64,000 nucleotides of DNA from Panopea generosa (lineage: Eukaryota > Mollusca > Bivalvia > Adapedonta > Hiatellidae), in NCBI GenBank assembly GCA_029582155.1, contig CM055901.1:55162625-55226624 (forward strand), read 5' to 3'. Below, in pieces: positions 3,491 through 50,777 of this stretch (the first letter of the stretch is position 1; the number at the start of each line of letters is the position of its first letter). A program made the translations under genes and the position numbers. The notes below the pieces were generated by a model. That model saw only the letters and a list, made by a program, of their open reading frames with translations. It was not told where the DNA came from and did not search any database.

Positions 3491-3710
3491 TAAATCGTTT
3501 GCGTGCAAACCATTGAGCTTCTTTAAACCCGGGTTTGATAAACTCGGGGTGCAGAGTTAATCGATAAAAGAGATCGCTGGTTCCACATTTCTTCACGCCG
3601 ATAACAAACACGTACGGTAAACAGCGTAGTATTTCGCCCTCTCCAGCCCTTCCGTCGTTTCGTTCGTACCAACATGGATTTTTAAACTTCTGACTGAATT
3701 TGATTGGCGG
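3491..3710 (-). CDS. CHST15-like carbohydrate sulfotransferase, PAPS-binding exon (partial gene)
   Basis: One 220-bp internal exon. It opens after 'aataatttcag' and closes at the consensus donor 'GTAAGT', with 73 codons plus one base (end phase 1). The peptide has 'NPCWYER', then 'LRCLPYVFVIGVKKCGTSDL', then 'LTLHPEF' and 'EAQWFARKRF'. The GxxKCGTSDL segment is the 5'-phosphosulfate-binding loop of Golgi sulfotransferases, which move sulfate from PAPS to glycans. The order PCWYE, loop, HPE, WxARKR matches GalNAc-4-sulfate 6-O-sulfotransferase (CHST15) homologues, common in molluscs. No upstream exon with the membrane anchor and no downstream exon was found on this strand. Its end phase and content match the missing first exon of the plus-strand copy starting at 44,677. 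Confidence 0.8.
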
Positions 3711-3711
3711 C

Positions 3712-6700
3712 TGAAATTATTAAAAAAAAAGTTTTTTATCTGAATGTATTCATGTATAATTCATGCAGACAGACAATATAAACGATACTAACGGTTATCG
3801 CCATTTTGACGTAACCTTGGCATCGGTTTTATTCATATTTCAATGTTTTCAAAGTTCGTGTATGTAAAGTGATAGTTATAGAAAGGTTTAACCCATGATG
3901 TAAATTGTCACGTGGGTGCCTGTGCACGAGAAAAGTGTGGTATTGTTTCAATGGCGGTAGTCAACCAGTGAACTTTTTATTGTCGGTCACACGATCAATA
4001 GGCAAATAGAAATTTGTATTTTGTTTAATGCAACCCATATTTATAACATTATTAAACAAAATACCTGCGCATTTCTTTTTCGTTTCAGTATATTTAATCA
4101 TAGCAAATGCTGCGCCGTAGCAGAGACATTAAATTTGCCACCAGACACGTGGACAATTAGATCACTAATCTGTCCGGAACCCATTGTTTACATTATTTAC
4201 ATGTAGGATAAACCAATGTAACGCTAAATGGAGGGCGTCTGCATTTGTGCGAATTCACATTCTAGGCAAACGGGTTTGGTCTCGAGTTTTAGCAACGGTA
4301 GTTACAGAAGGCCCTCACCTTTCAATAAACAAATAACATTAGAATCAAGATGGCAATAATAATATTCAGTGGAATATAAAACAAAACAATCCAAGGAAAT
4401 GAAAATATGAATAAAAATAGAAAAGAATAAAAGTAGACAATAAGGAAAAAGAAAGAAAAGACATGACGTATTTAATTTTAAGCGCTGTTATGATATCGGT
4501 GCATTGAAATGCTGCATAAAATTAAATATCTGAGGTTGGTTGACAAAACGTTTCGTGTTTTTAATGAATTGTTGTACCAGTGTAAGTATAAATGTATTTT
4601 CGTCGCTGGTATATGTACTCTTACCAAATTAAAGCACCCGTGTTTTTAAGGGATGAAAACGGTGTTTAGAACGAAAAGGACAAAGTCACCCATCAGTATA
4701 ATATATGGGACATTGTATAAAGTAGTGGTCAGATCTTGTTTTTCATTACCACATCCAACACATCTGTAACTCCAACAACATCTATATCAGAATGTATATT
4801 AGATAGCTTTATGACGTAACAAAGTTTAAATACGATAATATTCACCTTTTATTTTTGATGATTGGAAGTAACATTTGGTTAATTAATGTTTCAGGATGAA
4901 AAATAGTTAATGTTTGTATCAATAGGTTATTGTATTGAAATGTTAATTATTTTGGATTTCTTCCGCTAAAATGTTTAGTTTTCTCTCAGGAACAAGTCGT
5001 ACATATGCTACTTCGCCTATTTATTTACAAGGTTAAATATTTTATTAACATCTCTGTCAAAACTCATAATTGAGGTATAAGCCCAACATTGATTTCACTT
5101 CTTATTTCTACAGTGAATGAAACATTTTTAAAGGCTTGTCATTCGCAAATATCAAAGAAGGGAAACTTACATATGGTGTTTTTAAACATCTGCAGTGCCA
5201 AAATATCGTTAGAAAATAGGGGTCACGTTTCAAACCGTGTTTTGATTTTGTGTTCAGTATGTGTGTACGTTGTTGACAAAGTGAAAGTAGACTTCAGAAA
5301 CATTGTATCCTTATAAGCTCAATTCGCCCTAGGAGAGAAACGACCGAGTAGTTTATAACATCAAAGAAAACAAACAACAATGTTATAGAACAGATATGCG
5401 ATGACATTTATCATTACTACCTGGATAATGGAATAATGAAGCGAGTTTCACAAAACCGGTTTTCTCCAATTAACTCACTGTACCGAGACAACATCCATCT
5501 CAATAGGAGGAAACAGTACTTTGAACGAATAAAAGAAGCAAACTTAACATTGTTTTGAACATGTTAACGCACCAATCAGATAGTATTGATGTAAGCCACA
5601 CGTGTTTGCTACATGACAGGTTTACATGGAATAGGATAAGCGTTTTTTAATAGAAACGTGTCAATTCCGTCTATTTACACAGAGGTGTAGAAAAGGGAAT
5701 CAAATCGAGGAAACCACCAGCATCATTAAAATATAACAGAGTCCTTGACGCTTATACTTTGTACGGCGACTTTGATGATAACAACATAAAGTGTAACGTC
5801 AAAAAATAAAATATACTAGTATTTTAGACTCCAGACTTACACGTAGCAGGTGCGACGATGGCCATTACCAAGGTAATATTGTTAAATTGATGTTGCATAA
5901 CTCATAAATGTTTTTTGGCTACATCACAATATATATACTTATAACACTTTCACTGAAAACCGTTGGCAGGATGATACGTTACACAACGTCTACCTGTTGA
6001 AATACTTACTTGTAACAGTTCATGTTTAAACCACGAGATAATTCTTGTCAGGGGGGGGGGGGGGGGGGGTGCGAGGAATGTAAAACAATCAACAACAATT
6101 TTAAATGGACGAATGATAGTATCGTTATTTCGGCCTCACTTCATCACGATATTGTATGTTATTTTATTTTTATGGGTGGCAATACAAACTTGAATGTATA
6201 TTGCAATTTCAAGTTTAATATCTGGTTCCGATAATGTGTTGCGTGTTGTGTGCTAATTTGAGGTTGAACAAGCTTCTAGAAAAAAAATATGTTGGTTAAC
6301 GTTTAACCGAACTGAACGCAGTTCTGGGATTTACTACACAATTTGTGATATTGGTTGGATAATCAAAATATGATTATGTATGATATGAACATATGGAGAT
6401 TATGTATGATATGAACACGTGGAGTTTACTCATATTAGAAATAAACACATCTTAACATATTGTTGATATGAAATTCATTTTTATATTAAAATACAAACAT
6501 AGAACATATTGTATACAAATGCTATAGCTTTTATTTTAGAAAACAAAACATACATAATTTCTATCACGTCGATATGTTTTTTCTCGTATTTACATTTAGC
6601 ATAGTTATACGTATAGTTATTTTCAGTTTGGAGTCACGTATATGTTTTTATCAACAACAATTACATGCAGTGCTGCCATGATTCTTATCTTCCGTGATAT

Positions 6701-6950
6701 ATTATTATGTTAAGCATGTGCGTGCATGGGTGCGTGCATGGATGCGTGATACTTAAATGTGTATTGCAATGTCACCCAGCTTATCTAATTTTCTTTCATA
6801 TTCCGTAAATACTTTAGAAACAAATCCTGTTTTTTATAGATAAAAACATCCTGTTTAATAGATAAAACATCCTGTTTTTAGATGAGAGTAATGATTTATA
6901 ATGTGATAATTTTCCATATATATACATCACGTGCAGATTTAACTTTTTTT
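3712..6950. other. Intergenic or intronic sequence with a poly-G tract
   Basis: No supported exon. The region should hold 5' exons of the minus-strand sulfotransferase if that gene is intact, but none was recognised. A pure run of 19 G lies at 6051-6069. Confidence 0.4.
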
Positions 6951-6954
6951 TCCT

Positions 6955-7133
6955 TCAAGTTCTTACGATTTTTACAAATCACGCTCGAAGTCTTCCTGTG
7001 TGTAACCAGTACTTAAGCATATGCGGAAAAGGTGTCTTGCTCAATGAAACCACGCATGTCCGTGGTGAAGATCGAACCCACCACCTTCCGAACCTGGGTT
7101 CGGTGCTCTACCGCTGGACAACACGCCTTAACG
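6955..7133 (-). mobile_element. tRNA-derived SINE
   Basis: Read on the minus strand, the element starts near 7133 with a tRNA-like head. Box A is 'agcggtagagca' (about 7103-7117) and box B is 'gggttcgatc' (about 7070-7080). A body follows with 'ccgcatatgcttaagtactgg' truncated here to its first 20 bases. A second copy lies on the same strand at 20,935-21,105, so this is a dispersed family and not a tRNA gene. There is no cloverleaf 3' half. Confidence 0.75.
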
Positions 7134-7399
7134 TGATTTAAAGGAGAGATATGGCGATAGATTTTCACTAAAAAGAAGAAGTAAATATTCAGTTTGCGAA
7201 GAAATAAGATCTGGTGCTTTTTCCGCTGCTGTGCTGGCCCTGCAATTATGTAAGCGTCTGCGCCTGTAAACAGTTATATAATATTTGTCTTGTTTTACTA
7301 TGTGAATTTACTGTGCGTATTGGAAAACTGGTCTTTCTTTTTCTAAATGAAAGTGTTTCTTTTATTCTGCAACTCCTTATTTATATTGAATTTTAGCCA

Positions 7400-7705
7400 C
7401 AATCTACCACCACAATATTTACCACTACAATCACTCCTACCACTACCACTACCACTGCTATTATAAATACCATTACACTTATATTAGCAGTATCATTAAC
7501 ATTACCACAACCACTGCCACTATCACTACTACACCATCACAACAAATACAATATCATCTGCCACGAACAATGACACTGTCACCACCACTACACCTACCGA
7601 TACTATTACCATTATCATTATCACAAACACTATCACTACTACTTCCACAGCATCAACAATATCACAATCACAACTCACACTACCATTACCACTACTATTA
7701 AATAG
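7400..7705. repeat. Imperfect ACC/ACT trinucleotide repeat
   Basis: Low-complexity 'taccactaccactacc'-type sequence with frequent interruptions. It creates an open frame on the minus strand that is not a gene. Confidence 0.75.
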
Positions 7706-7739
7706 ACATAAAGAATTAACCCATTCATTTGGCATCAAT

Positions 7740-9330
7740 AATGTAAAATTTAGAACTAAGAAATAGAAAGTAAGAATAAAACAGTATACAAATTATATAC
7801 ATTGATAATCAAGTATTTAGAATCAGGCATATTGGAACAAATGATTTAGAATTAAAAAATCGGAATAAAAAATTAAACATTAAGCATATTCAATTGAACA
7901 TTTGGATTTTATCATCATAATACATTTAAGAAAGATACTAAATATGACTATATGAACTATTGCTGAGCTTGTATGCCTTTGATAACATCAATAATCTAAT
8001 GTTTGACTAATACATAGCAAATTGTCACAATTTGTTATCAGATAGACGTTGGTGAATGCTTAGTCTAATACTTAAATGTTTTGAATTTCAGCCTCAAAGA
8101 ATTGATTTTAAGACTTATGCGACACACTTGTTCAATTTAGATTTTTTTAAATCTATATGCATGAACGAATATTGCATTACATTTGCATACATGTATCACC
8201 TCATTTTATTTGCTAAAAAATATGTAAAGAGTATAGATCAATAAATTTGATATCTTTGTGCTTTTTTTTTTATTTGTTGTCATTCGGTGATTATTTTTAA
8301 AACCCCAGATTTTTTTGACTTGATTTTAAAATAAAACTATCCAAAATCAATACCTCCAAATGGGCAAAATAGGTTCTGAAATGCAGGAAAACGCAAGAAA
8401 TGGCATCATCGCCGAATTTTAATCTGGGCGAGCATGCCCTGTGACCCCGTCCCCAACACCTAGAATATGCCTCCCAGTTTTTAAGGTCTAGCTATGGGCC
8501 AGCTGTTAATATGTCTCTAATAAAATTGATCAAATTTGGTACTTTTTTCCGGGGTTGTTTTAAGGACAATATCCCTAGATCTCTAAAATAAGGCCTTTGA
8601 TCCCCAGATCTCTGAAAATAAATGGCCATGTTCTCCAAAACCCCTGTGAGGGCCTCATATATAGTCAGTGACACTGCAACATATTTTGTGACGTATAATA
8701 TGTTTCGCGTGATTTTATTTTTATTCCAATTTGATCCGTTTTCACGTAATAATTTTTTTTCATCTAAGAAAGAGTACGAATGACGATGCAAAGGTCGTCA
8801 AGTCGTATTTAAGTATTATCTATTCTTTAGAATAGGGACATCGTTTCAAGTTAGTAACTCCTATTTAAATATCAATTTGTCACGTTTTGGTGCATTTGAC
8901 ATACCAAACCATTTGGCTTTTTATTTTTTAATGATAATGAGAGCATTTTTATCCATTAAGATAATTAAAACTCATAACTGAACTTTGAACAGCTAATATG
9001 GATTATCTAGCTTTAAAAATAAAAAAGAATACAATTACCATGACAGTTAAGGTAACCGGCCATCAATAACTGGCATGGGGCAGCAAATGCATTTAATGAA
9101 CACTTCGGTTCAGTTTAAGACCATCACCGTATAAAATATCTTTACCATGTGTATGGTTGTTATTCCATAGTATGGTTATGTTCATGCTGTTATGGAGGAT
9201 GTGTACTTTTAATGTTCGGTATCTTGCTGTTTATGCCGCCATTCTTATATTTCAACATATGTCGCGCGTAAAAAGATAGCATCGGCTGTCTACGCTTAAA
9301 TGTATTCTATGTGTAAATCAATTTTGTTGG
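7740..9330. other. Unannotated sequence
   Basis: No exon or element could be supported. The section 8400-8680 has higher GC and a repeat-like look ('gcgagcatgccctgtgaccc'), but I could not tie it to a family. The minus-strand frame at 8492-8791 has no recognisable motif. Confidence 0.35.
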
Positions 9331-9334
9331 TCCA

Positions 9335-12300
9335 ATGTATTTCAAATCTATACAACAACTTCAGGTCATTATAGTTAATGACATTGTACACTTTTTTACG
9401 CTGTTCCTTGTCTATATGTGCCTTGTTTACGTTACTTCTATCATTTTATCTATCATAGTACACCATTGTTCCTCGTCTATATGTGCCTTGTTTTACGTTA
9501 CTTCTATCATTTTATCTATCACAGTACACCATTGTTCCTTGTCTATATATGCCTTGTTTTAGAGCTCTACGTTATTTATATCATTTGTTTTACGTTACTT
9601 TTATCATTTCATCTATCACATTACACCACTGCTCCTCGTCTATACGTGCTTTGTTAACGTAACTTGTATCATTTTATCTTCCATATCACACCACTGTTTC
9701 GTATCTATATATGCCTTGTTAACGTCACTTCTATAATTTTATCTATCACAGTACACTGCTGTTCCTCGTCTATATGTCCCTTGTTTTAAAGTTCAAAATA
9801 ACTTGTATCATTTTATCTATCACAGTACACCACTGTTCCTCATTTATATATGCCTTTTTTTACATAACTTGTATCATTTTATCTATTACAGTACATCGCT
9901 GTTCCTCGTCTATATGTGCCTTGTTTAACGTTAATTTTTATCATTTTATCTATCACAGTACACAACTGTTCTTCGTTTTTATGTGCCTTGTTTACGTTAC
10001 TTCTATCATTTAATCTATCACAGAACATAACTGTTTTTCGTCTATATGTGTCTTGTTTGAGAGCTCTAGGTTACTTGTATTATTTTATCTATCACATTAC
10101 ACCACTGTTCCTCGTCTGTATATGCCTTGTTTTAAATTACTTGTATCATTTTATATTCAACAGTACACCACTGTTCCTCATCTATATGTGCCTTGTTTTA
10201 CGTTACTTTTATCATTTTATCTATCACAGTACACCACTGTTTTTTTGTTTATATGTGCCTTTTTTACGTTACTTGTGTCATTTTATCTTCAACAGTACAA
10301 CACTGTTCCTTGTCTATGTGCCTTGTTTAAGTTACTTCTATCATTTTATCTGTCACAGTACATGACTGTTCCTCGTCTATATGTGTCTTGTTTAACGCTA
10401 CTTTTTATAAGTTTATCTATCACAGTACACAACTGTTCCTCGTTTATATGTGCCATGTTTTACATAACTTGTATCATTTTATCTTCCACAGTACATCATA
10501 GTTTCTTGTCTATATGTGCCTTGTTTACGTTACTTCTATCATTTTATCTATCACAGTACACCACTGTTCCTCCTCTATGTTTGCCTTGTTTTAGCCTTCC
10601 ACGTTATTTATATCATTAGTTTTTCGTTACTTCTATCATTTATCTATCATAGTACACCATTGTTTCTCGTTTATATGTGCTTTGTTTTACGTTACTTCTA
10701 TCATTTTATCTATCACATAACACCACTGTTACCTCGTCTTTATGTGCATTGTTTACGTTACTTGTATCATTTTATCTTCCACAGTACACCACTGTTCGAT
10801 ACCTATATAAGCCTTGTTAACGTTACTTCTATAATTTTATCTATCACAGCACACCGCTGTTCCTCGTCTGTATGTGTCTTGTTTAAGAGCTCAAAATTAC
10901 TTGTATCATTTTATCTATCACAGTACACCACTGTTCCCCATTAATATGTGCCTTTTTTTTTACATTACTTGTATCATTTTATCTATTACAGTACATCGCT
11001 GTTCCTCGTCTATACGTTGTTTTACGTTACTTCTATCATTTTGTCTATAACAGTACATCGCGGTTTCTCGTCTATATGTTGTTTTACGTCACTTCTATCA
11101 TTTTATCTTCCACAGTACACCACTTTTCCTTGTCAATATGTGCCTTGTTTTATGTTCCTTCTATCATTTTATCTTCAACAGTACACCACTGTTACTTGTC
11201 TATATGTGCCTTGTTTACGTTACTTCTATCAGTTTATATATCACAGTATACCACTGTTCCTCGTATATATGTACCTTTTTTAACATTACATGTATTATTT
11301 TATCTATCACAGTACATTGTTGTTCCACGTTTATATGTGCCTTTTTTACATAACTTGTATTATTTTATGTTCCACAGTACACCACTGCTCGTGTCTATAT
11401 GTGCCTGATTTAAGTTACTTTTATCAGTTTATCTATTATAGTACACCACTGTTCCTCGTCTATATGTATCTATTCATACGTTACTTTTATCATTTTATAT
11501 TCCACAGTACATCACTGTTCCTTGTCTGTATGTGCCTTGTTTGGCCTTTTTTATATCAGTTTATCTACTTCAGTACACCACTGTTCCTCATTTATATATG
11601 CTTTGTTTTACATTACTTCTATCATTTTATCTAACACAGTACACCATTTTTCCTCGTCTATATGTGCCTTGTTTGGCCTTTTTTATATCAGTTTATCTAT
11701 TATAGTACACCACTGTTCCTCGTCTATATGTATCTATTCATACGTTACTTCTATCATTTTATCTTCCGCAGTACATCACTGTTCCTTGTCTATAATTGCC
11801 TTGTTTGGCCTTTTTATATCAGTTTATCTATTTCAGTACACCACTGTTCCTCATTTATATATGCTTTGTTTTACATTACTTCTATCATTTTATCTAACAC
11901 AGTACACTGCCGTTCCTTGTTTATATGTGTCTTTTTTACATTACTTGAATTATTTTATCTTCCACAGTACACCACTGTTCCTTGTCTATATGTGCCTAGT
12001 TTACGTTACTTCTATCATTTTATCTATCATAGTACACCACTGTTCCTCGTCTATATGTGCCTTGTTTTGCGTTACTTATATCATTTTATCTACCACAGTA
12101 AACCATTGTTCCTGTTTAAAATGTGCCTTGTTTTACGTTACTTCTATAATTTTATTTATCATAGTACACCACTATTCCTCGATTGTATGTGCTTTGTTTT
12201 ATGTTGCTTCTATAATTTTATATATCTCAGGACATCACTGTTCCTCGTTTTATATGTGTCTTGTTTTACGTTATTTTTACAATTTTATCCATGACAATAC

Positions 12301-12420
12301 AATACTACACCTCAACTATATATGCATGATTTACTTTTACCATTCCATCTATTCACAGTACAATATATATAAGTGTTGTTTAACGTTTCTATACCATTTT
12401 ATGCACAATGTTATTGTTTG
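9335..12420. repeat. 67-bp satellite array, left copy
   Basis: About 45 units of 65-67 bp. A typical unit contains 'acgttacttctatcatttta', then 'tctatcacagtacaccactg', then 'ttcctcgtctatatgtgcc'. Variants swap 'tctatc' for 'tcttcc', or have a 'ttggcctttttta'-type insertion. The arrangement of variants from about 10,460 onward is repeated in reverse complement at 62,620-64,000, so the array was copied as a block. Long Leu/Tyr/Phe-rich open frames inside it follow from a stop-poor unit. Confidence 0.93.
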
Positions 12421-12690
12421 ATCCCTTGTGTACATGTGAATATTTTTATTGAAATATTTACTTCTAACGCAGATAGTTTTATGGAAACGTTTATTTAATA
12501 TTGATCATTCTGTTGGAACATATTCTTCGAATGTAGCTAGTTTATGCAATTATTTCCTTAAATTGTTGATAATTCTATTGGAATATATTCTTCGAATGTA
12601 GCTAGTTTTATGCAATTATTTCCTTAAAATGCTGATGATTTTAAGAAAATGTAGACATTTTTATGGAAATAGATTTTTTCTAACGTTTAG
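12421..12690. repeat. Array flank with an internal ~83-bp tandem duplication
   Basis: Two copies of a segment holding 'attcttcgaatgtagctag' and 'tgcaattatttccttaaa', then a degenerate third. The whole flank matches 62,304-62,600 in reverse complement at roughly 95% by eye. Homology between the two copies stops at 12,690, inside 'ctaacgtttag'. Confidence 0.8.
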
Positions 12691-13271
12691 GCAGACTTAA
12701 GTAAGTTTGATATTTCGATAACGTTTGACTTAAGTTTCACTATTTCTACCATTCGTGGACCAAAAAGTATATATCATATTAAAGTACTATCCTAGACTCA
12801 AGTTAAAATATCCCAAAAATGGTGCCAAAAGTACCACTTTTTGCCCCCTGAAGTTGGGTAGCCCCACTTTCCGCAGAAAAAAACCCACTCAATTTCACCA
12901 ATTTTACTTTCAAAACAGTTACTTAAAAATTGAATTTAGTCAGTCACAGAAACATAATTTCAATTTTTTATTGACACAAACATAATAAACTTATATTTTA
13001 TTGTGATCATTTGCCAGTTTGACATTTTCATCCAACCAGAAATAAGCTTACAATAAAAATTGATACCCTGAACATCCCTATACTTTTTTCAGCCAACTAG
13101 AGAGCTCCTCTCAATGGTGGTAGCTGATAATATATACTGTTTGATCGTTTTCATATTCACTTCATAAGCAATTTTAAGAGGGATAAACACCTCTAAACAA
13201 TACCCTGATATTTAGTGAAACTTTAAACTGGATTGCATGGTGCTAAGTAGTATGATGCCCGGGAGTAAATT

Positions 13272-13800
13272 TTGCCTGACGAGATGAATGACAATAAGCC
13301 TGCTACATTGATACAAACTCTTATCAATATGTACAAATGGGCAGTGAAAAAACATTATAATGACACAGTAATCTCAAGTGGTAATAAAACACATCACCAT
13401 CTTACACCTGTAAATCAGAATTGTTACCATTATATCGATCCAAGTGAGACATATCAAGCAGTAAAAATACAACTCCCCAACTTTGACAAGAATGAACAGA
13501 CACACCCCTAAAAGGTATTCGCCGACAGTACAAGTCCGTTACTGTCCCAAGATGAGATATATGACGTTAGTGACAACGATGAAAGCCTGAATCACAATTA
13601 CAGTGAGCCAATGCAACTTTGTTAACTGCACACCATGTACGATACACAAATTCCAGGGACACAGTTATGTAATGTTTTTAATAGAGAACTTGCCAACCTA
13701 CCAAGAGACATGTACATCAGCAAGTTACTTAAGTTGATAGACCAATCTGAAGACGATTTAAACACCTATATAAACATTCTCTTCCAATGGACCACACTAC
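13272..13800 (+). pseudogene. LINE ORF1 remnant, 5' part
   Basis: Coding-like pieces (13,272-13,511 and 13,635-13,800) resemble the N-terminal half of a LINE ORF1. They carry stops between them and are cut at 13,801 by the insertion of another LINE. The assignment rests mainly on position ahead of the endonuclease. Confidence 0.45.
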
Positions 13801-13875
<75 letters not shown>

Positions 13876-15050
13876 CCGCACTTATATAGCACTCCTATCA
13901 TATCAGAAATACGTTCAAAAGTGCTGTATATACAGTTAAATTTGCTTACATAGTATTGCATAATAATTTAAAGAATCAGCTTAAAATGTAAGATCATAAA
14001 ACATACATCAGCACGGAAATCCCAGTCACATCCAACTGAATAAAAAAGACATACGTCTACATATAGACTTAGATAATAAACAGTAAACAGCGAGAATAAA
14101 ACCAATATACAATGCAAATAAAACAAGTATATGGCATCACAAAAAAATCATTAAAAATAAAAAAGCATTATAAAAAAACTGATTAAAAAATCAGGAAGTT
14201 AAGAGCTGGCTATTTTCAAATATCATCAATTGTCAGTGTTTCTAGAACAGTGCCACATACCACTGTTACTATTTAGTGCACATAGTGTTTCATAAAGAAG
14301 TGTGTTTTTAACAGTTTCTTAAACACATTTAAAGATTGTGCGCCCTGGATATTGCTAGGCAATGTGTACCATAAGCTCGATCATAATGCTCGAAACTCCT
14401 GTCTCCATATAGAACAGTTCCATGCCTTGATACCACTAATGTCAGCGAGTTATTAGAGCATAGGTCCCTAGCTGGTCTATAAACCTTCAACATTTCTTGT
14501 ATATATAGTGGTGACTGACCATGTAACGCCTTGTTCGTATGTATGAGGACTTTATTGAATCCTGTAAGATACATGTAACCAATGAAGTACTTTCAGCACA
14601 GGAGTTATATGGGTGCGGCGTGAAGTTCTTGAGATAATACGAGCAGCAGTATTGTGTACACGTTGCAGTTTATTTTAAGTGGAACTTGAAATGCCGCCAA
14701 GAAGCGCATTACAGTAGTCCAATCTTGAGGTAACTAATGAATTAACTAGAGTTATTGTGGCATCATTTGTAAGAACTCTTCTTATACGACCAATACTGCT
14801 TAGTTGAATATTCGCAAATCTACATACATAGTTAACTTGCTCTTCCATATCCATATGTGAAGTAAATATGGCACCAAGACTTCTAGCAGAGTCTGTTGAC
14901 TTTATCAAAGATTCACCAACTTTCACTGATATATTTTCATCATATTTGGAATTATGTTTTGATGAGAACATCATTACTTCAGTCTTGTCTGTGTTAAGTT
15001 TAAGCATATTTCTGTTCATCCAATAGAGAATTTCAGATACGGGGAGAAAA
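13801..15050 (-). mobile_element. 5'-truncated CR1-like LINE nested in the larger LINE
   Basis: On the minus strand the element begins near 15,050 inside the reverse transcriptase gene. It has 'LNTDKTEVMMFSSKHNS', 'SLGAIFTSHMDMEEQV', 'IGRIRR' and 'SRLDYCNALL', then 'NKALHGQSPLYIQEML', 'VYRPARDLCS' and 'YGDRSFE'. These are the C-terminal RT and downstream motifs of CR1/Jockey-group LINEs. The 3' end is a short UTR ending in a (TAA)n tail, seen on the plus strand as (TTA)n at 13,801-13,873. Frames are broken. It splits the ORF1 of the host LINE, so it inserted later. Confidence 0.88.
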
Positions 15051-15054
15051 ATTT

Positions 15055-16320
15055 AAGTGAAATTGAAACAATCTTTAACAAAGGAAAGCAATTAAGTTTC
15101 TCAAAAGCGAAGAAAGAAAACTGCATTCGTGAAACCGCAGATTCACTACCCCAACCTTCAATAGACTACCAAATGGAACTTAGTCGGATTCGCAGCAACG
15201 TCATTGAAGTAAACCGTAGATATAACAAATTTAAAAAGAAAGACAACTTGATAAAGCAGAAATTAGCCACCTAAAATGTGAACTAGCTAAAATAAACATG
15301 AAAATGATACTTTCAAAAGTCAAATGACCGTGTTACAAAGTGGTGTCTCATAAAGATAAAATGAATATGAAATGAAACTAAACAGTGTGTTACACTCTAC
15401 AATGCAGGGAATGAAAACATACTCGATACAACTAGACAATGCATGTAAGGCAATTACCCATGTTGCAGTCAGTGGTAACAGTGATACACTGCTAGATCAT
15501 AAAGCAACTGAACAAACTATAAATGTGATACCCACCAAACTTATTACACTAAATCAAATCACAAAGCCTGAAATAACTATCACTACAAAATGCGACCCAC
15601 AACAGCAAAATCCTATTCCGACCATTGTCATAGAAGAAGACCAAATGATAACAATGCAAACGCTGTCCTACGCACCAATGGAAGTTATCATACCAGAACA
15701 TCGACAAGAGCAGCCACCAATTGCGTTAGACCAAATACAAAACTATGGACAAGACCAGCAACAGAACACGAAACACAGAACGCAGTGATATTTCCAAACC
15801 CAATTAAAGGCAATCGGATTCCAATTTAAAACTTGCTCAAAAACTTGAATCGGTCCCTAGTGTAACCCAACAACCAAAACGTGCACGCTTTGAAATTCAT
15901 AAGACAGAATAAGACGTTATCAATGGAAAAAGAAACACTACTTAGTCATACTGTACAGATGACTCTTTAAGTTGATAATACTCAGGTAGATTAAAAAGTG
16001 GGATTGATCCAATGTCCACACAAAAAGGATTAGAAACATACTTGTGTTTAAGGGGTGTAACACCAACAGAAATACCAATGTTTGAAAATTAAAATGGTGA
16101 CGTAGTCGCTAAATTATCTGTGCCTATTATCAAGAACAAATAATCGAAGATGATAATTGCTTTTGGCTGCAATTTACCCGCTGTAGGCGTTGGTACTCCA
16201 AAAATGCAAGGTAAAATATTAAAAGTTCACTACAACAGAGGAGACGTCATAGGTATGATTATAATGATGTAGATGATACAAATCTGAACTACGGAAATCA
16301 CACAGAAATTGATAAATGAC
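15055..16320 (+). pseudogene. LINE ORF1 remnant, 3' part
   Basis: The ORF1 frame resumes after the nested element, with an open piece at 15,372-15,788 rich in Gln, Thr and Ile. Later pieces read 'RGVTPTEIPMFE' and 'NCFWLQFTRCRRWYSK' in different frames. The last resembles the FWPxGVxCRPW box at the end of ORF1 in some mollusc LINEs. At least three frame changes and several stops are present. Confidence 0.55.
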
Positions 16321-16339
16321 TACAAAATCGAAATCTTAA

Positions 16340-16705
16340 CCAGTTATTCTACATGCTTTGAATAATCTAAACATAATAACCTGTAATGTAAGGGAAGTTA
16401 TGCCCTCAGCAGCCAGTTTAAGTAAATCATTAGACACATTGAATATTGATATAGCGTTTATAAAAGAACATAAGCTTTTACCACATATGAGTAATTTTAT
16501 GGACTGTATTCGTTTTAATTACTGTAACCATACCTTGTGCGATTCCTCTTTTGATGTATACGGTTCATTAAAATGCGGTAAGGCGGGTGTATCAATTATC
16601 TATAAAAAGGAGTTAGAATTCTCAGTTCGAACAATGTACGAAATCGAAGATGATAGAATAGCAGGAATTAAGCTAACATTAAGTAGCAGTACTAGGCTAT
16701 TCTTT

Positions 16706-16764
<59 letters not shown>

Positions 16765-16960
16765 TATGCCTTCCTCAAATTATTCTACATTCGACTTAAT
16801 GAAGGTATAGAGTTCTCTTTAGGCAATTATTGATACATACTCTGAGCAAGGAACTGTTTTCCTGGCAGGCGGCATGAATGCAGAGGTCAAACATAAAGAT
16901 AATAAAAATGTATCATTTAGAAATTAGCGATCGTCTAGATTTTTAGATAAAAACTCACTT
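16340..16960 (+). pseudogene. LINE endonuclease domain remnant
   Basis: The peptide from 16,358 reads 'NNLNIITCNVREVMPSAASL', then 'IDIAFIKEHKLLPH' and 'YGSLKCGKAGVSIIYKK'. This is the start of an EEP-fold endonuclease (N-x-R and E-H-K-L boxes), which nicks target DNA for target-primed reverse transcription. The frame ends at a (TA)n run at 16,705-16,762. Beyond it the metal-site region reads 'FLAGGMNAEV', where 'GDFNA' is expected. Confidence 0.8.
16705..16762. repeat. (TA)n microsatellite
   Basis: Nearly pure TA dinucleotides that have expanded inside the dead endonuclease frame. Confidence 0.95.
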
Positions 16961-17799
16961 ACTTCCATAGGATTATGTAGATAAAAATGGACCAAACTAC
17001 ACATACAAAACTGCTGAAAAAATGCTTGACCATATTATTGTACATAACTATAACATAGATATTTTTACACAAATAAAGATGATTTATTTAATGTATCGGA
17101 GCACTGTCCCATATATGTAATTGTTAACGGTCAATTTAATACAATACGAGAAAATACAAATTCCGAAAAAATGCGTGGCATAAACTTAATGAAGATTCAA
17201 CTATCTTGTCCCAATCCAAGCTATCTTCAGCATTACAAAATATTAAAAATGACAGTATAGATATATATTACAATGATCTGCTGTCATTTATCAATAAAAC
17301 CGCTGACGAAACTATGCCGAAATCAAAATATAACAAACATGCTAAATTATACTGATAAAAAACGTACAAAAAGCTCACAAAGATCAACGCGCCATTAGAA
17401 AGTTATGGATAGCTAAGGGTAAACCATGTCGTAGAAATTTCGAAACCTACTCAAATTACAGAATACTGAAACGAAAATTTATAAATAAACATAAGAAAGT
17501 CATATAAAGCATAGAAAATACATTATACAATGAACTAAACACAGCAGCAGACTGTGATAACAAATTGTTTTGGAGTCTTGTAAAGAAGAGAAAAAATAAA
17601 AGATCTCCAACTTGCTCACAAATAGAAACGGACAGAGGTATATTACCAGACCCTCATTAGATATGCGACAGCTTTTCTGATTTTTATCAAAATATATACT
17701 TACGTCTAGTATCAGATAATTTTGATGAGGAAATTAAAACTGAAATAGAAAATAAAATTGCTAAAATAACGCAGGCCGATGAAGTATAAAATGACAATC

Positions 17800-18840
17800 C
17801 TATATTAGAAGCAGATATAACGGGCGAGCATATACAAAAAGTAGTATCGAGTTTAAAAAATAGAAAGGCTGCTTCATTTGATAACATATTTAAGGAACAT
17901 TTGAAACTTGGTAGACAATCTCTATTCAAAGCTTTAGCAACACTTTTTAATCGAATAAGTGTCGAAGAATTTTTTTTTAAAAAGGGTGTAATAATCCCAA
18001 TACTCAAAAATAACGGAAGAGCAGATCCGATACAAAAAATACGGACAAATAACGCTACTACCTGTTATTTATAAGCTGTTTGAAAAGATTACACATACAA
18101 AGTTACTAAGCAAAGTGTCAGACACAAAACAAGCCTTTTACACCCTGTGGTTATCTGGGATATTTTATAAATAGAATAATTTTGGTATACAGGGGAAGAT
18201 ATGGAGGCTTATTGTTAATGATTATAGTAACATGAACATTTTTATTTACATAAACGGCACAAAGTCGGATTGGTTTATGATAAAATAAGGGGTCCGTCAA
18301 GGAGGAACGCTTTCAACTTTTATCCACAATTTCTATATTGAGTGACTCTTAAATGAGTTGGAAACGTGTATTTTAAGTTAAAAAACTGGTAATTGCACTC
18401 TTGCAAACGATCTTACACTCTCCAGCATATCTCCTCTTGATATACAGCAGATGTTAGTCACTGTCTCCATTTACTGTTCTCGATGGGGATACATAATTAA
18501 CCCAATTAAAAGCAACATTAGAGTCTTTGTAGACAGATCGCGTGTCAAACAGTACTCTGAATTCCACCTAGGACAGGAACATGTTAAAATTGTTTCTAAT
18601 CTAAAATATGTTGGTTTGTAAATGGTAAATAACAAGCTAAACCAGAACGACATGACTGATAATGCAGTGACTAAAGCCACATCGTTGTTTTACTCTATAA
18701 TGCCTATCGGTCTAAATGTAAACAATGTTAATACCGTAGAATCAGCATCACTCATTCATAACATATCTATCCCAACACTAATCAACGGTTTGGAACTTTG
18801 GTCCGATCTATCTGTCACAACAAGGTTTTGAAATAAGAAC
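17800..18840 (+). pseudogene. LINE reverse transcriptase remnant
   Basis: Pieces in shifting frames read 'KAASFDNIFKEHLK', 'KKGVIIPILKN', 'LLPVIYKLFEKITH', 'GVRQGGTLSTF', 'CTLANDLTLSS' and 'SNLKYVGL'. They follow the normal RT order. The RQGGTLS box is intact, while the catalytic YADD box has become LANDL, losing one catalytic Asp. Stops are frequent. Confidence 0.85.
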
Positions 18841-31224: not shown

Positions 31225-42341
<11,117 letters not shown>

Positions 42342-42377
42342 GTAAGTTTATGCGATATGGCTTTATAATGTGGCTTA

Positions 42378-42676
42378 TAAATGATACGAATAATATGCAT
42401 AATATGAATAATAATAACAATATTAATAATAATATTAATAATAAAAAATGATATGAATAATAGTAATATGAATAATAAAAATAATGTGAATAATATGAAT
42501 AATAATAATAATAATATGAATAATAATTATATGAATAATAAAAAAAATGAATAATATGAATAATGAAAATAATATGAATAATAATATGAATAATAAAAAT
42601 ATGAATAATATGAAAAATACAATTATAATAATAATAATATGAATAATAAAAAAAAATATGAATAATAATAATAATA
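42378..42676. repeat. AAT/ATGAAT low-complexity repeat
   Basis: Imperfect 'aataatatgaataat' repeats directly after exon 11. Minus-strand Ile/Tyr/His-rich frames are artefacts. Confidence 0.9.
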
Positions 42677-42714
42677 GCACATTCTATATTTACTGAGAGA
42701 ACGTATTTGACCAA

Positions 42715-43422
42715 GTCAATTTTCTATGAGACCGTGCAGCAAATGTACATTACTTACATAACAGTCACACACCAACAAAAACAACAACACTATAAAAATT
42801 ATGCTTATACAAGTTATTCATCAATATTGGGTATACAAATTAATTTTTGTCAGTGCGTGTAATATAAGCTGTGATCAAGGACGTGTATAGGATTATATCC
42901 TTGCTGTAATATATCAAGGAAGTAATGAACAAATTATTATGAGTCAGGTCTCTGGAACTTGTTTAAACCCATCGCAATACTGATGTCTTTCAAGACTTTA
43001 AAGATCTAACCTAAAGAATTATTCTCTCCGACCAAATCATGATTTAGCATGAAATCCTCGACATATCCGGGATCAAAAAATTGGTATAGCCTTCCTTTGA
43101 AACTATAACATGCCAGTTCTCTGTACGATCCGAAACCTGATTCTTCACAATAATTCATAATTTGGTTGGAGAAAATAAACATTTAGGTTAGATCGTTAAT
43201 GACTTGAATAAATATCAGTAGTTTGGGTAAACGGATGGGCTTGTGCAATATGTTTGAAAATATCGTTCAAGACATCAACGCTTGAATATTTCAATATAAC
43301 TTTGAATCCTAGATTCATATCAGATATCCGCTTATCGGAAAGTGTTAAAACGTGCAACCAAATTAGTTCATAAAATGAGTCATCTTTCATTCATGAGAAG
43401 ACAGGCGTCATTGACTGATTAC
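42715..43422. other. Unannotated sequence before the gap
   Basis: I searched for cytochrome b561 and sulfotransferase exons here and found none. Confidence 0.4.
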
Positions 43423-43922
43423 NNNNNNNNNNNNNNNNNNNNNNNNNNNNNNNNNNNNNNNNNNNNNNNNNNNNNNNNNNNNNNNNNNNNNNNNNNNNNN
43501 NNNNNNNNNNNNNNNNNNNNNNNNNNNNNNNNNNNNNNNNNNNNNNNNNNNNNNNNNNNNNNNNNNNNNNNNNNNNNNNNNNNNNNNNNNNNNNNNNNNN
43601 NNNNNNNNNNNNNNNNNNNNNNNNNNNNNNNNNNNNNNNNNNNNNNNNNNNNNNNNNNNNNNNNNNNNNNNNNNNNNNNNNNNNNNNNNNNNNNNNNNNN
43701 NNNNNNNNNNNNNNNNNNNNNNNNNNNNNNNNNNNNNNNNNNNNNNNNNNNNNNNNNNNNNNNNNNNNNNNNNNNNNNNNNNNNNNNNNNNNNNNNNNNN
43801 NNNNNNNNNNNNNNNNNNNNNNNNNNNNNNNNNNNNNNNNNNNNNNNNNNNNNNNNNNNNNNNNNNNNNNNNNNNNNNNNNNNNNNNNNNNNNNNNNNNN
43901 NNNNNNNNNNNNNNNNNNNNNN
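43423..43922. other. Assembly gap, exactly 500 N
   Basis: A round-number run of N is normally a placeholder for a join of unknown size. It falls between a gene missing its 3' exons (FRRS1-like, left) and a gene missing its 5' exon (sulfotransferase, right). Confidence 0.99.
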
Positions 43923-44676
43923 TAGAAATCATATAGAGAATATATTGTTTGTTTTGGTGTAAGGTCGAATTATATTTCATGTAATAACTGGCAAAAGTCA
44001 TATGGAATGTCATTTTAGTGATCAAATATCATTTGATCTTACACCAAATTCACCTCAATTCGCCTTTAAATATTATTGGATTAATAAAAATATTAAAGTA
44101 CTTTTTTATGAAATATTTATTAAAGATTGATATTCAAGGACAAAAAAATATGTTAGAAACAGTCGATTACCATAAATAATCCACTGAGAAATCTCTATGA
44201 TCCATCAAAAAGCAAACTAACTGATTATCATTATGCAATGTTAAATTACAAATGCTATATAATAACAACGGAACAGATCAATCTTTAAATTGTTAACGCA
44301 TTCGGTAGCACGTCTGTGTGTTTTAATGGCATACGTTTCTCACCACTGGGAAGGTTATCAGTTACTTGTGGAGATGGGTGTGTTTGAGTACTGGTTAACC
44401 TAAAGAATCCCAGAAAATGTGGTTAGGTTAATTGATCGTCTATTTGACCTCGATGGTATAAAATGACGCTAAATATTCAAACGAATTATATCTTGTCTAA
44501 AGCATAACGAAACATGTCACCATAGTTTATAAGCCCTATTGGTTTTCCTGTCATTTTATACAGTCTGCATCATGTGACTCAAGTGTCTGTATATCACTGC
44601 ATTGGCGTGATATGCACTTTGTAACTTACAATTGTAAATTTTCACTATCTTCAACATTATTTATATGTCCTCTCAG
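43923..44676. other. Unannotated sequence after the gap
   Basis: No PAPS-binding-loop exon is present. The segment 44,330-44,440 has a SINE-3'-like look, but I could not confirm it. Confidence 0.35.
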
Positions 44677-44798
44677 AGAATGGTAACATGGACGATTTCA
44701 ACAACTATATAGACATGTTTAGTAAAGCTGCGTTAACAATTGATGCCAGTGCCCGAACGCATCGAAAAGAGATCCCTACAACTATAGACAGATAACAG
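44677..44798 (+). pseudogene. Sulfotransferase exon (YIDMF motif) with frame break
   Basis: Acceptor 'gtcctctcag', donor GTATGT. It starts in phase 1 as 'NGNMDDFNNYIDMFSKAAL'. The end must read 'YRQITG' to join exon 45,723, which is a different frame. Without a shift, the first frame stops at TAA 44,793-44,795. At 122 bp it is one base short. The same start phase could join FRRS1-like exon 11, but the motifs say sulfotransferase. Confidence 0.82.
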
Positions 44799-45722
44799 GT
44801 ATGTAGTTGTGACATGTATACAAAGACAGCCTTAAAATAAGCATACACAACCATTACATCAACATCAACACAAATCTCCATGGAGACGACATTGACCCAG
44901 ACTGTCAATGAACGCGAGGAAGACTGTTTGGATCAATGTCTGGCTGTGGTACAATAAGCACAGCCAGGTTAAGATTGAAGCTGGGATAAAATCTGTGTGT
45001 ATGCATAACTAAATACGTATATTTTAATAGGTTGTAATAAGTTGGACAATTTACATACATAAACTGTACAGCTTTATATGAGTAGGATCCAGTTAAGATT
45101 CACGGAATGCTCACATGCTATATGCAGGACAGATTTAGAAAACCCGTTGGACCATGAAGATACAGTGAATTCATATGTATTTTATTTCATAAAGGGAGAT
45201 AATTAAATTCACAACAAGGAATTCCCGATTTTTGGTATCATTTCAGACGCTCATTCACAATGTTTGATATATATAATAAATCAGACATAGAATGTACAGA
45301 CCAGACTACGGCGAGCGCGTCTAGCTACAATGCAAACCATAGACACAATATCAAGGCCTCTACCAAACCGATAAATTTTGTATATATATTGTCTACATTT
45401 GAATTTTACATAACTTTTAATGATAGTAGTACAGACTACATAAGTCATTGTTAGATAAAAGGTCGAATGTCACAGCTAAAACAACGTATAATTGTGTATG
45501 CGTAGTAAAATACGCAATAAATACTTTAGAATAAATGCGTAATGATGCACTATAAACTTGATGTATCTGACAAAAGTTTAAAATGTTAATTATGTCTCAT
45601 GTAAAATGCTCAAATGTAAGAAAACATACTAGGGATTCGATGTTTAAGTACTTATATTACACGGGTTTATTTAAATGGTTTATATCCATAATTTAGTAGT
45701 AATCAGTGTCATACTATTTCAG

Positions 45723-45877
45723 GTGAGGGGAGCCCGTCCAATTTACATTTGAATACACACTGGATGTATCTACCAGGGAATGAGAATGTTGAGAACCAAA
45801 GTTTATCATACTGGATTACATACATCATTTTCTTCCAATGCAAAACTACTAATAACATTCCGGGATCCAGTTGAAAG
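45723..45877 (+). pseudogene. Sulfotransferase exon (3'-phosphate-binding) with frame break
   Basis: Acceptor 'atactatttcag'. First frame 'GEGSPSNLHLNTHWMYLPGN', then a +1 shift to 'SNAKLLITFRDPVER'. The donor reads GTTCGC, well off consensus, though it is the only site that joins in frame to 'LYSDYY' of the next exon. Confidence 0.82.
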
Positions 45878-45950
45878 GTTCGCATGCGTGATTGACACAC
45901 TCGATTGAATTGTTCTTATGTTTGTTCTTTTTATTTTGTTTACATAAAAT

Positions 45951-45952
<2 letters not shown>

Positions 45953-46003
<51 letters not shown>
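45953..46003. repeat. (GA)n microsatellite
   Basis: About 25 GA dinucleotides in the intron. Confidence 0.97.
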
Positions 46004-46006
<3 letters not shown>

Positions 46007-46219
46007 GTACAGACAAACAGAGGAGAACGAAAAGTATGCATTCTGTGGAAAAATACAAGCGTGCTTGCCTATTATATTATATTCTAATATACCTTTATAT
46101 TTTTCATTGTGTCATACTTGATTAAATAGTTAGGTTCCACAATAACCATATCTACATTTCTTACATTTCTTATTTTTTAATTATTTTTCTTTCTTAAATG
46201 TTGACGTATGTGTTTCCAG

Positions 46220-46391
46220 GCTATACTCCGACTACTATCACGAATATGGCTCTTTACAGTCACAAATTCTCCAAATCCTCGCCAGTTTCAACCTGGTAGT
46301 CACAGAAGGTATCAAATTGTATCAGGACTGTTTTCAGCACCATTCGGTCAGAAGTTGTGTTTTCAACCCAAAATTAAACGGAAAGACTAGA
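46220..46391 (+). CDS. Sulfotransferase exon (LYSDYY motif)
   Basis: Acceptor 'gtgtttccag', donor GTAAGG. Peptide 'LYSDYYHEYGSLQSQILQIL', then 'FNLVVTEGIKLYQDCFQHHS' and 'CVFNPKLNGKTR'. No frame break. It completes the Arg of 'RDPVER' from the exon before. Confidence 0.88.
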
Positions 46392-46439
46392 GTAAGGTTT
46401 AACCTTATATTTCATGCATATATGGTGAGGTGGCGGTGG

Positions 46440-47000
46440 AGGTTTAGCAGTCAACTCGTCACGGAAAGGTACTATTTGCGGTTAAGGTAAAACGCTAAAG
46501 AAAGGGATGAATGGTCCGGGTTGGGTACCAGTCAACAATAAGACTGGGATGACTGGTCGAGGTTGGGACCCAGTCAACTCTAAGACTGGATGGACTGGTC
46601 CGGTTTGGGTACCAGTCAACACTAAGACAGGGATAACTGGTCCTGGTGGGGGATCACTAAAGTAAGGGAAGTTTCGGCGGGGTTAGGTACTAGTTCACTA
46701 AAATACGGGAAAGCTATGCATGGTTGTGTAGCAGTAAACACACAAAGACAGGGTGATTGGGCGGGCTTGGGGCGCCAGTTCACAAAAGATAGGTGTGACC
46801 GGGCGGGGGTTGGGAAACAGTTAGCATTAAAGTCAGGGACGACCAGATGGAATGGGTACTAGTTCACTAAATAAGGGTATGACTTGGCTGTGTTAGGTAA
46901 CAGTTAGCAATTAAGACTGGACTGGACGGAGTTGGGCAACAGCAAATATTCAAGACAGAGAACATTAGACAAGGTTGGGTACCAGTTAACACTAACTGAT
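46440..47000. repeat. Degenerate ~46-50-bp minisatellite in the intron
   Basis: Units contain 'actggtccgggttgggtacc', 'agtcaacactaagac' and 'agggat', decaying toward the right. About ten copies. Confidence 0.82.
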
Positions 47001-47525
47001 TGTATTTAAGAAATCTTTTTCGTTGACGACTATATCGGGAAATAATACAAGATTAACGTTCCGTATCCGTCCGTCCGTCAGTCAGTCCTTCCTCCTATTG
47101 GTGCAATAATATACCAAGTTTATATGAAATAAAAAGTGTACAAGGTACCTTTTAGCGTCATTGGGACAATTTATTCCATGACTTTCGTTTCATATGACAG
47201 ATATTGAACAAAGTTGTTGGAAATATGTGTCAAACCAATTTTCTAATTACTTTTGATGGGAATACATTATATATAGATGTCCTTATGCGACCTACAGAGG
47301 TTCCACATCCCGCTCTTGAATGTGATTAAAGTTGTGATTCAATACATGAATCACATGACCACTGAGTACTTACCGTGGTCACTTTAAACTTATTTTTATT
47401 GCACTGAACACATGTTCATATGAGTTTCCTGCCATAATGTTATGTGACTCACAAAGATTACGTTGAAGCTTGTATACGGTGGTAGCATAAACAACAATTA
47501 AACATGATAAACTAAATGTACATTA
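47001..47525. other. Intronic sequence with a 'ccgtccgtcc' tract
   Basis: No exon. The tract 'atccgtccgtccgtcagtca' near 47,070 recalls 31,535-31,560 ('cacccgtccgtccgag'), so both may be part of a dispersed repeat. Confidence 0.4.
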
Positions 47526-47529
47526 GCAA

Positions 47530-48830
47530 TTCCAGGTAACATAGTTTCACATCACTGTCTCCAGTAATATGATTTTATATCACTGTCTCCAGTTACATTA
47601 TGAATTTGAAATCAATGTCTCCAGTTACATAATAAATTTGAAATCACTGTCTCCAGTAATATAACTTAACAACACATGTCTCCAGTTATATGATTTGACA
47701 CCACTATCTCCAGTAATATGATTTGACATCACTGTCTCCAGTAACATGATTTGACATCACTATCTCCAGTAATATGATTTGACATCACTGTCTCCAGTAA
47801 CATGATTTGACATCACTATCTCCAGTAATATGATTTGACATCACTGTCTCCAGTAATATGATTTGACATCACTGTCTCCAGTAACATGATTTGACATCCA
47901 CTGTCTCCAGTAACATGATTTGACATCACTGTCTCTAGTAACATGATTGACATCACTGTCTCCAGTAACATGATTGACAACGCAGTCTCCAGTAACATGA
48001 TTTGACATCACTGTCTCCAGTAACATGATTTGACATCACTGTCTCTAGTAACATGATTTGACATCACTGTGTCCAGTGACATGATTGCAACGCTGTCTCC
48101 AGTAACATGATTGACAACGCTGTCTCCAGTAACATGATTTGACATCACTGTCTCTAGTAACATGATTTGACATCACTGTCTCCAGTAACATGATTTGACA
48201 TCACTGTCTCCAGTAACATGATTTGACATCACTGTCTCTAGTAACATGATTTGACATCACTAACTCCAGTAACATGATTTGACATCACTGTCTCCAGTAA
48301 CATGATTTGACATCACTGTCTCTAGTAACATGATTTGACATCACTGTCTCCAGTAACATGATTTGACATCACTGTCTCTAGTAACATGATTTGACATCAC
48401 TGTCTCCAGTAACATGATTGACAACACAGTCTCCAGTAACATGATTGACAACGCTGTCTCCAGTAACAAGATTTGACACCACTGACAACGCTGTCTCCAG
48501 TTACATGATTTGACATCACTTTCTCCAGTAACCTGATTTAATATCTGTGTCTCCAGTAACATGATTTGACGTCAGTTACTTCAGTTACATGATTTGACGT
48601 CAGTGACTCGTGAAACATGATTTGATATCACTGTCTCCAGTAACATGATTTAATATCAGTGTCTCTAGTAACATGATTTGACGTCAGTTACTTCAGTTAC
48701 ATGATTTGACGTCAGTGACTCCAGTATCAGTGAAAACAGTAACCTGATATGACGTCAGTGTCTCAAGTAACATGATTTGACGTCAGTGTTTCCAGTAACA
48801 TGATTTGACGCCAGTGTCTCCAGCTACAAG
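47530..48830. repeat. 28-bp minisatellite in the intron
   Basis: About 45 copies of 'catcactgtctccagtaaca' plus 'tgatttga', most regular between 47,700 and 48,450, with several 26-27-bp variants ('tgattgacaacgctg'). It ends within 25 bp of the acceptor for exon 48,853. Confidence 0.95.
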
Positions 48831-48852
48831 ATTTGATTTTTCTTGTTTACAG

Positions 48853-48997
48853 GTGCAGATACAGCTTGGCATATACTGCGTATTTTGGGAGGAACTCACC
48901 AGACTCTTTCCAAGAGAACAGATATTAGTTTTACAAAATAAAAATCTTCGTGACAAAGAAAATACCATGCGAAGTGTTTACAACTTTCTGGAAATGA
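48853..48997 (+). CDS. Sulfotransferase exon
   Basis: Acceptor 'ttgtttacag', donor GTAAGT. Peptide 'VQIQLGIYCVFWEELTRLFP', then 'REQILVLQNKNLRD' and 'VYNFLEM'. The G-x-Y-x-x-x-(W/L)...F-x-x-x-Q-(I/L)-L-V layout is the usual sulfotransferase helix-strand pair before the C-terminal domain. Confidence 0.88.
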
Positions 48998-49985
48998 GTA
49001 AGTTTGACACAATGGAAAAATTGAAATAACTGGTATTCTGGATAAATAACGTATATGGTAAAAAAGGTTTATAGTTCATATAAATATCCCTTCTGCTTCA
49101 AACCTCTTTTATCAACGTTTTCGTCATTCTATTATTCATTATAACATTATTTGCAAACAAATTCATTATTAACATCATTCTCGAATTATTGGTAGATTAA
49201 ATACATATTATTATTCTTATTTGAGTATATCTCTGTATCTTTAAATATGATATTCATAGTATGTCATTTGTCCAATTTTGCATTAAAACTGTCACTAGAC
49301 ATATGCATACTTGACCAGAATAACGCTCGATGGCAGATTTAAGGTCAAGATAAGATAATCCGTTTAACCAAAACGTATACATTCACTACACAGTAACACT
49401 CCTTTTTAAGTGACGATAGCACGACTAAATGCAATTTGGTTAAAAATATTTTCAAAAAGGTTCGTAAGGACTCAAATTTCTGGGCATAAAATCATGCATA
49501 TCATACACTACAATAAGATATCACTGTGCTGCATAGAACCGCTGTGGGTAGATAAGGTAAAGTAAGGGAACCTCGTTACAAGACAATTATTAAATAAACT
49601 ATAGAGTTGTCTATTCACTAGTAGTTGTATTCGTCGTTTGAAATGTTTGATATCTTTCATATTTTAATTTTTTTTCTGTACTGTACTTTTGTATCATCCC
49701 TGGTTTTCTAATTTACGAAAGGGCTATACAAGTAATGTAGAAAACAGTGGCACTAAAGGTTAAATGTCGTCTAGAGCAGTCAGGGGTAAAACTGCAAATT
49801 TGACGCTTTAACCTAGTGTACGGGTGTATTAAAATTTGACACGCCATCGTTTTCATATCTTTAAAAAATTGTAAATAAAAATAAGAAAATGTTCCTCTGT
49901 TTTGTAAGAATTCAACAGGGTTTACATACGTATGATGCATAACACAGTTATGGTCAGGTATGTACATACGAGTACAAAAAGTATG
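48998..49985. other. Intronic sequence
   Basis: Nothing supported. Confidence 0.35.
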
Positions 49986-49989
49986 TTAA

Positions 49990-50325
49990 CGTCTCACTAC
50001 ACAGTTGCGCCTCCGCTTTGTCAAGGTAAGAGGGTTCTTGCCCTTCAGAAAAGTTCCTATGTAATTTGTCTGAAATCTTTTCAAAATGGCTTTTAGTGGT
50101 TGTGATGATTTCTGCAGATAATTAGAACATAATCTGGTATAGCAAACACTGCAATAAAAATCTTAGGGTATCACTGCACTGTCTTTTAAAAATAAAACAA
50201 GCTGGTCAGTCTAAAAGTTATTGAGCATGTTTGTGTGCGGATACATTCCTGCTATAAAATAAATACTGAAACAAATATATGGAATATTTTACCGTGGACA
50301 TTCTAAGCTTTTTTTATTGAACAAT
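49990..50325 (+). repeat. Interspersed repeat, copy B
   Basis: Same family and orientation as 425-838, roughly 75-80% alike by eye. It lies in the last intron of the sulfotransferase. Confidence 0.6.
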
Positions 50326-50405
50326 TGTTGAAAGCGAAGCTAAATATCATACAACAACAACAATTGTCATATCGTGGCGGTGTCTACTTGAGACACCGTG
50401 ATCTT
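50326..50405 (+). mobile_element. SINE 3' tail fragment
   Basis: 'attgttgaaagcgaagctaa' followed by 'atcatacaacaacaacaa' matches the 3' end of the SINE at 57,065-57,315 ('gctgaaaacgacgctaaaca', 'ccatacaacaac'). Confidence 0.6.
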
Positions 50406-50583
50406 TTTCATATTTTATTAGAATCATCAGAAGTTATAAGCTCATTTCTTATACAAAAGTATAATAACATAATTTTAAATTTAAACCAATATCTTCAGAT
50501 ACACAAATTTATTTACACCCAACAAGATATATTATAAACTGTTCATGATTTTATATAAATAAAGCAACTCACTTTTTTTAAAG

Positions 50584-50777
50584 GAACTCTTTCTGATGCG
50601 GAGATGTACAAGGTTATAAACAGCAAAGAGACATATCAAAGACGAGCGTCTTTCAAGGATCAAGGACCCATGTTTAACGAGACCTTCAACATGTTATATC
50701 AATTTTACAAACCATTTAATCAAAAGATGGCAGCTTTAACAGGAAGCCCAGATTTTCTTTATGCACATGATTTTTAA
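50584..50777 (+). CDS. Sulfotransferase last exon
   Basis: Acceptor 'ttttttaaag'. Peptide 'RTLSDAEMYKVINSKETYQR', then 'GPMFNETFNMLYQFYKPFNQ' and 'KMAALTGSPDFLYAHDF', stop TAA at 50,775-50,777. The 'L..FY.PFN..(L/M)A.L' pattern is the normal end of CHST15-like enzymes. Confidence 0.9.

Follow-up and report, generated by a model that had tools for sequence, protein, structure and literature searches.

A reversed contig and an unmerged contig overlap as the probable origin of an apparently split sulfotransferase gene in the genome assembly of Panopea generosa

The window analysed here is a stretch of 64,000 nucleotides from the genome assembly GCA_029582155.1 of the bivalve Panopea generosa (CM055901.1, in the following C8; window C8:55162625-55226624). 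It contains an exon for the binding loop of 3'-phosphoadenosine-5'-phosphosulfate (PAPS) on the minus strand and, on the other side of a 500-N gap, five further sulfotransferase exons on the plus strand, which the first-pass annotation had combined into a single gene split across strands with the break at the gap. The locus is almost certainly a scaffolding and assembly artefact, in which one contig (Y) would have been placed backwards and its 14.7-kb overlap with the neighbouring contig (Z) would have remained unrecognised. The sulfotransferase gene itself appears unbroken and its exons real, i.e. the oddity appears to reflect an assembly error and not new biology.

Coordinates are those of the window; numbers of zero or less and above 64000 extend them past the window (C8 position = 55162624 + coordinate). 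The genome compared comprised 1,474,161,289 bases in 39 contigs. Placed on C8, the left edge of the window falls inside a contig and not at a contig end. Contigs are named X (left of the first 500-N gap), Y (between both gaps) and Z (right of the second), the second gap agreeing with the position reported in the first-pass annotation.

C8:55146240-55206046, minus strand: contig Y (59,807 bp), flanked on both sides by 500-N gaps and probably placed backwards; in-window part 1..43422
-16884..-16385: 500-N scaffold gap between X and Y, outside the window to the left
43423..43922: 500-N scaffold gap between Y and Z
43923..58612, plus strand: Z copy of the twice-printed stretch, reverse-complement match to the left end of Y

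When 164 kb enclosing the window were compared with themselves, the matches listed included one of 99.25 % identity over 14,737 columns (14,703 versus 14,690 bp) between positions -16384..-1682 of Y and, on the opposite strand, positions 58612..43923 of Z. The match ends at the first base of Y and at the first base of Z, exactly at both gap edges, and thus has the dovetail form (near-identity up to both contig ends) of an unmerged contig overlap. Since it terminates exactly at both contig ends, its geometry is that of overlapping contigs, one of which is reversed. Contig Y would accordingly have been set backwards next to Z, and the 14.7-kb overlap, neither recognised nor merged, would appear in the scaffold once in each orientation, Y and Z being joined by 500 N. 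Unpolished contig ends, perhaps some haplotype difference and the difficulty of orienting short contigs by Hi-C may have been the cause. As drawn, the scaffold demands an inverted 40-kb unit, a near-perfect extra copy of 14.7 kb and two coincidences at contig ends.

Upon realignment, 118 differences were counted in the overlap: 65 are indels, of which 58 measure 1 bp, and the other 53 are substitutions. Only 12 of the 53 substitutions are located more than 12 columns away from any other difference, and 57 of 73 indel columns adjoin the same base. With the unit of a paralogous gene on Z (gene 2, see below) as outgroup, the side on which each indel arose was polarised: the change lay in Z for 23 of 24 indels in 43949-47400 and in Y for 22 of 26 indels from four blocks of 50431-58546 (Fisher p 3.4e-9 for the opposed distribution). 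The differences sit mainly near each contig's own end and resemble errors, exceptions being the terminal 2.2 kb of Y and a cluster at 51.0-51.3 kb. Both exceptions weigh against the proposed artefact: the terminal 2.2 kb of Y is free of any difference from Z, the errors of Y thus not being worst at its very end, and the 13 substitutions clustered at 51.0-51.3 kb are atypical of read noise, although this cluster may be allelic. To these points is added that local comparison of the right end of Y with the right end of X gave no useful similarity.

If a segment of 14.7 kb had truly and recently been duplicated in inverted orientation, and the assembler had broken contigs at the repeat boundaries, both copies would likewise be present in the assembly; contigs do often end at such boundaries. 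Neutral divergence, however, does not predict differences that are rich in 1-bp indels and switch sides along the alignment, and the surrounding 40-kb unit would need a separate inversion. Moreover, a genome search with 1,978 bases of the left end of Z, in which 40 of 9,242 candidates were scored, yielded 101 matches; the piece was found at 99-100 % identity at two places, both at this locus, followed by the unit of gene 2 with 94 %. Nearly all remaining matches fell on a short dispersed repeat in the query (about 1115-1467), one being located at 425-566. For this 2-kb piece, representing one end of the overlap, no further near-identical genomic copy was detected among the candidates scored. 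Taken as an explanation of the locus, a segmental duplication is very improbable.

The sulfotransferase gene with the PAPS-loop exon (gene 1) is complete on contig Y alone. Its seven coding exons, named below as first exon and exons A to F, join to one open frame of 497 amino acids, and six of six introns are bounded by GT-AG.

23112..23594, minus strand: first exon, carrying the start codon and encoding a stem and, judged by eye, a hydrophobic anchor; phase 0 donor
3491..3710, minus strand: exon A, with PAPS-binding loop KKCGTSDLF; enters in phase 0, leaves in phase 1 (A/GTAAGT)
-2442..-2564, minus strand: exon B, left of the window
-3492..-3648, minus strand: exon C, left of the window
-3993..-4164, minus strand: exon D, left of the window
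-6628..-6772, minus strand: exon E, left of the window
-8359..-8552, minus strand: exon F, left of the window

The first-pass annotation was right about the strand of exon A and its exit in phase 1. Its statement that no following exon exists beside exon A silently relied on the left edge of the window being a contig end, which it is not: past that edge, exons B to F follow on the strand of exon A, 5.9-12.0 kb downstream of it. A paralogue on C6 has its first exon about 2 kb upstream of its PAPS-loop exon (71100325-71100882 and 71102898-71103128, respectively), and its matches to exons B to F come next in order on the same strand, the match to F being weak (40 %). This exon order supports gene 1 as one gene, first exon included.

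The plus-strand exons in the window, which start in phase 1 in agreement with the first-pass annotation, lie within the overlap on contig Z.

44677..44798, plus strand: exon B, second print; one 1-bp deletion versus gene 1
45723..45877, plus strand: exon C, second print; two 1-bp deletions versus gene 1
46220..46391, plus strand: exon D, second print; one 1-bp deletion and one 1-bp insertion versus gene 1
48853..48997, plus strand: exon E, second print; no difference from gene 1
50584..50777, plus strand: exon F, second print, includes the stop codon; no difference from gene 1

Compared exon by exon, they share 96.6-100 % identity with exons B to F of gene 1, whereby the values for C and D read low because 2 and 4 surplus bases, respectively, were included at their start. 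The 1-bp indels in exons B, C and D, which had been missed by the first-pass annotation, put the Z print out of frame in comparison with the intact copies. Judged from the sequence comparisons, the exons at 44.7-50.8 kb are the last five exons of gene 1, printed again with errors. A single gene divided by the gap is not supported: the whole gene resides on contig Y, itself probably placed backwards, and an error-bearing second print of B to F is found at the overlapping end of contig Z. The reported lack of a PAPS-loop exon before 44,677 holds for the scaffold as drawn, since neither the window up to 44677 nor the 50 kb preceding the window contains a plus-strand match to exon A, but contig Z begins just 754 bp before its exon B.

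These exons also bear on three other readings. A true chromosomal inversion that broke one gene, with exon A on one side and B to F on the other, had been offered by the first-pass annotation as the alternative to a wrongly oriented join, and would agree with exon A and the in-window exons B to F being oppositely oriented and complementary. Exon A, however, has its own exons B to F downstream on contig Y in an open frame, rendering a gene-breaking inversion exceedingly unlikely. The frameshifts could be those of a real, truncated pseudogene, if a young inverted duplication had arisen beside an older tandem pair of sulfotransferase genes and gene conversion had kept the copies nearly identical; this scenario is credited with very little probability. 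Finally, the parts could stem from two unrelated paralogues which are complementary in appearance only, a caveat already attached to the split gene. The family is indeed large, exon A having 23 matches genome-wide, and at all eight loci inspected (8 of the 23 matches, exon A and the copy of gene 2 included) the exon with the PAPS loop has a phase 1 donor. The donors at these loci were judged by eye, and in four near-identical copies on C9 the chosen donor lies 12 bases further on. Because this phase is common to all inspected loci, a phase match is weak evidence by itself. Yet the in-window exons B to F agree with those of gene 1 to the extent given above and belong to the 99.25 % match over 14.7 kb, which includes introns, whereas the true paralogue reaches only roughly 90 %; the chance that unrelated paralogues are involved is accordingly minute. 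As an observation speaking against a split gene, the first-pass annotation had named complete, independent exon sets at the two loci. Such a set does exist for exon A, but would be due to assembly redundancy and not to unrelated paralogues.

The wrong orientation of Y is further indicated by the tandem paralogue. Gene 2 is complete on contig Z, encodes 468 amino acids and differs from gene 1 by a nonsynonymous divergence (dN) of 0.022 and a synonymous divergence (dS) of 0.047.

59292..59681, plus strand: first exon of gene 2, the tandem paralogue
starts at 72910, 82859, 83913, 84414, 87594 and 89949 (the last ending at 90148), plus strand: remaining exons of gene 2, right of the window
9401..23849, minus strand: part of duplication unit 1 on contig Y, matching unit 2
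59029..64000 and on to about 110908, plus strand: duplication unit 2 from its start, matching unit 1

Overall, 11 chained blocks of Y (26.1 kb, 89.9 % identity) align with 59029-110908. The chain was selected for collinearity on the minus strand; exon F and its surroundings occur twice in unit 2, and one of these copies was skipped as a result. The inverted duplication described before between 10.5-24 kb and 59-64 kb is real sequence similarity. Once Y is flipped, 0.5 kb separates the end of unit 1 at 58546 (matching 110908) from the start of unit 2 at 59029 (matching 23849); with the chain chosen for collinearity, only a flipped Y fits both the overlap and the order of the duplicated unit. 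The proposal of a scaffold join in the wrong orientation is therefore supported by end-to-end overlap and unit order alike. Inverting the left side does place exon A upstream of B to F and turns the duplication into a direct one, as had been anticipated, but the segment to be flipped is the 59.8-kb contig C8:55146240-55206046 and not all sequence to the left. The corrected order, as reconstructed from sequence, would be that of two complete sulfotransferase genes arranged head-to-tail, i.e. an ordinary tandem duplication.

The 497-amino-acid product of gene 1 matches the Pfam families PF13469 (Sulfotransfer_3; 9.8e-10, 39.5 bits versus a cut-off of 27) and PF00685 (Sulfotransfer_1; 3.1e-6, 27.2 bits versus a cut-off of 22), and its domain scores above the cut-off place it among the PAPS-dependent sulfotransferases. 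Its best matches in the PDB are heparan sulfate 3-O-sulfotransferases (1.9e-06). The enzyme is probably a Golgi PAPS-dependent carbohydrate sulfotransferase, which may be carbohydrate sulfotransferase 15-like (CHST15). As in animal carbohydrate sulfotransferase 15-like genes, a sulfotransferase domain is combined with an N-terminal hydrophobic stretch (by eye); a point of difference is that the best PDB matches are the 3-O-sulfotransferases.

Several further features were observed. Long minisatellites with units of 28 and 34 bp are located in introns of gene 1 (47531-48836, in the Z print, and 871-2085). Another intron of this gene harbours a retroelement-like stretch (by eye) at 12691-19362 (and 62303), which has no counterpart in unit 2 and for which a Pfam search gave no reverse-transcriptase match. 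An open frame (CHFCEH...PLWQPIRQDF) continues across its right border into sequence that unit 1 and unit 2 share; this suggests that the stretch was deleted from unit 2 and not inserted into unit 1. In the unit of gene 2, as assembled, 89508-94730 and 94733-99860 form a direct tandem duplication of 5.2 kb (96.8 %), either genuine or itself an assembly duplication, through which a surplus copy of the last exon, F, is present. Between genes 1 and 2, the twice-printed stretch contains an exon-like sequence at 53898-54209 on the minus strand with a match to Amidohydro_2 (1.3e-10, above cut-off). Inside contig Y, a multi-exon gene on the plus strand (34792-41346, perhaps to 42451) encodes a threonine-rich stretch and repeated DOMON half-domains, with three Pfam DOMON matches each below the curated cut-off. 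Contig X ends (-19062..-16885) in repeats that include a tandem array, which may have caused the contig to break at this point.

Both components of the proposed artefact have precedents. According to a study on false duplications (Genome Biol. 2022, PMC9516828), these arise from read errors or divergent haplotypes, have a gap between the copies as one criterion and yield false gene and exon gains. The present locus is similar to this description in that sequence is printed twice around a scaffold gap, false exons are gained and merging would have been blocked by sequence errors or haplotype divergence; it is dissimilar in that the prints of Y and Z are oppositely oriented, since contig Y would also lie backwards. 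Inversions are common with short input contigs in Hi-C scaffolding, as stated in the SALSA2 paper (PMC6719893). In line with this, a short contig of 59.8 kb between gaps would have been wrongly oriented here, but unlike in that account the error is deduced from overlap and collinearity and not from contact maps.

The locus illustrates a test that requires no reads, namely a dovetail match to both contig ends combined with errors polarised by a true paralogue. For users of the assembly, local gene counts, the apparent pseudogene and the apparent 40-kb inversion would be false, and 14.7 kb would be counted twice. Underneath lies ordinary biology, namely two probable carbohydrate sulfotransferase genes in tandem.
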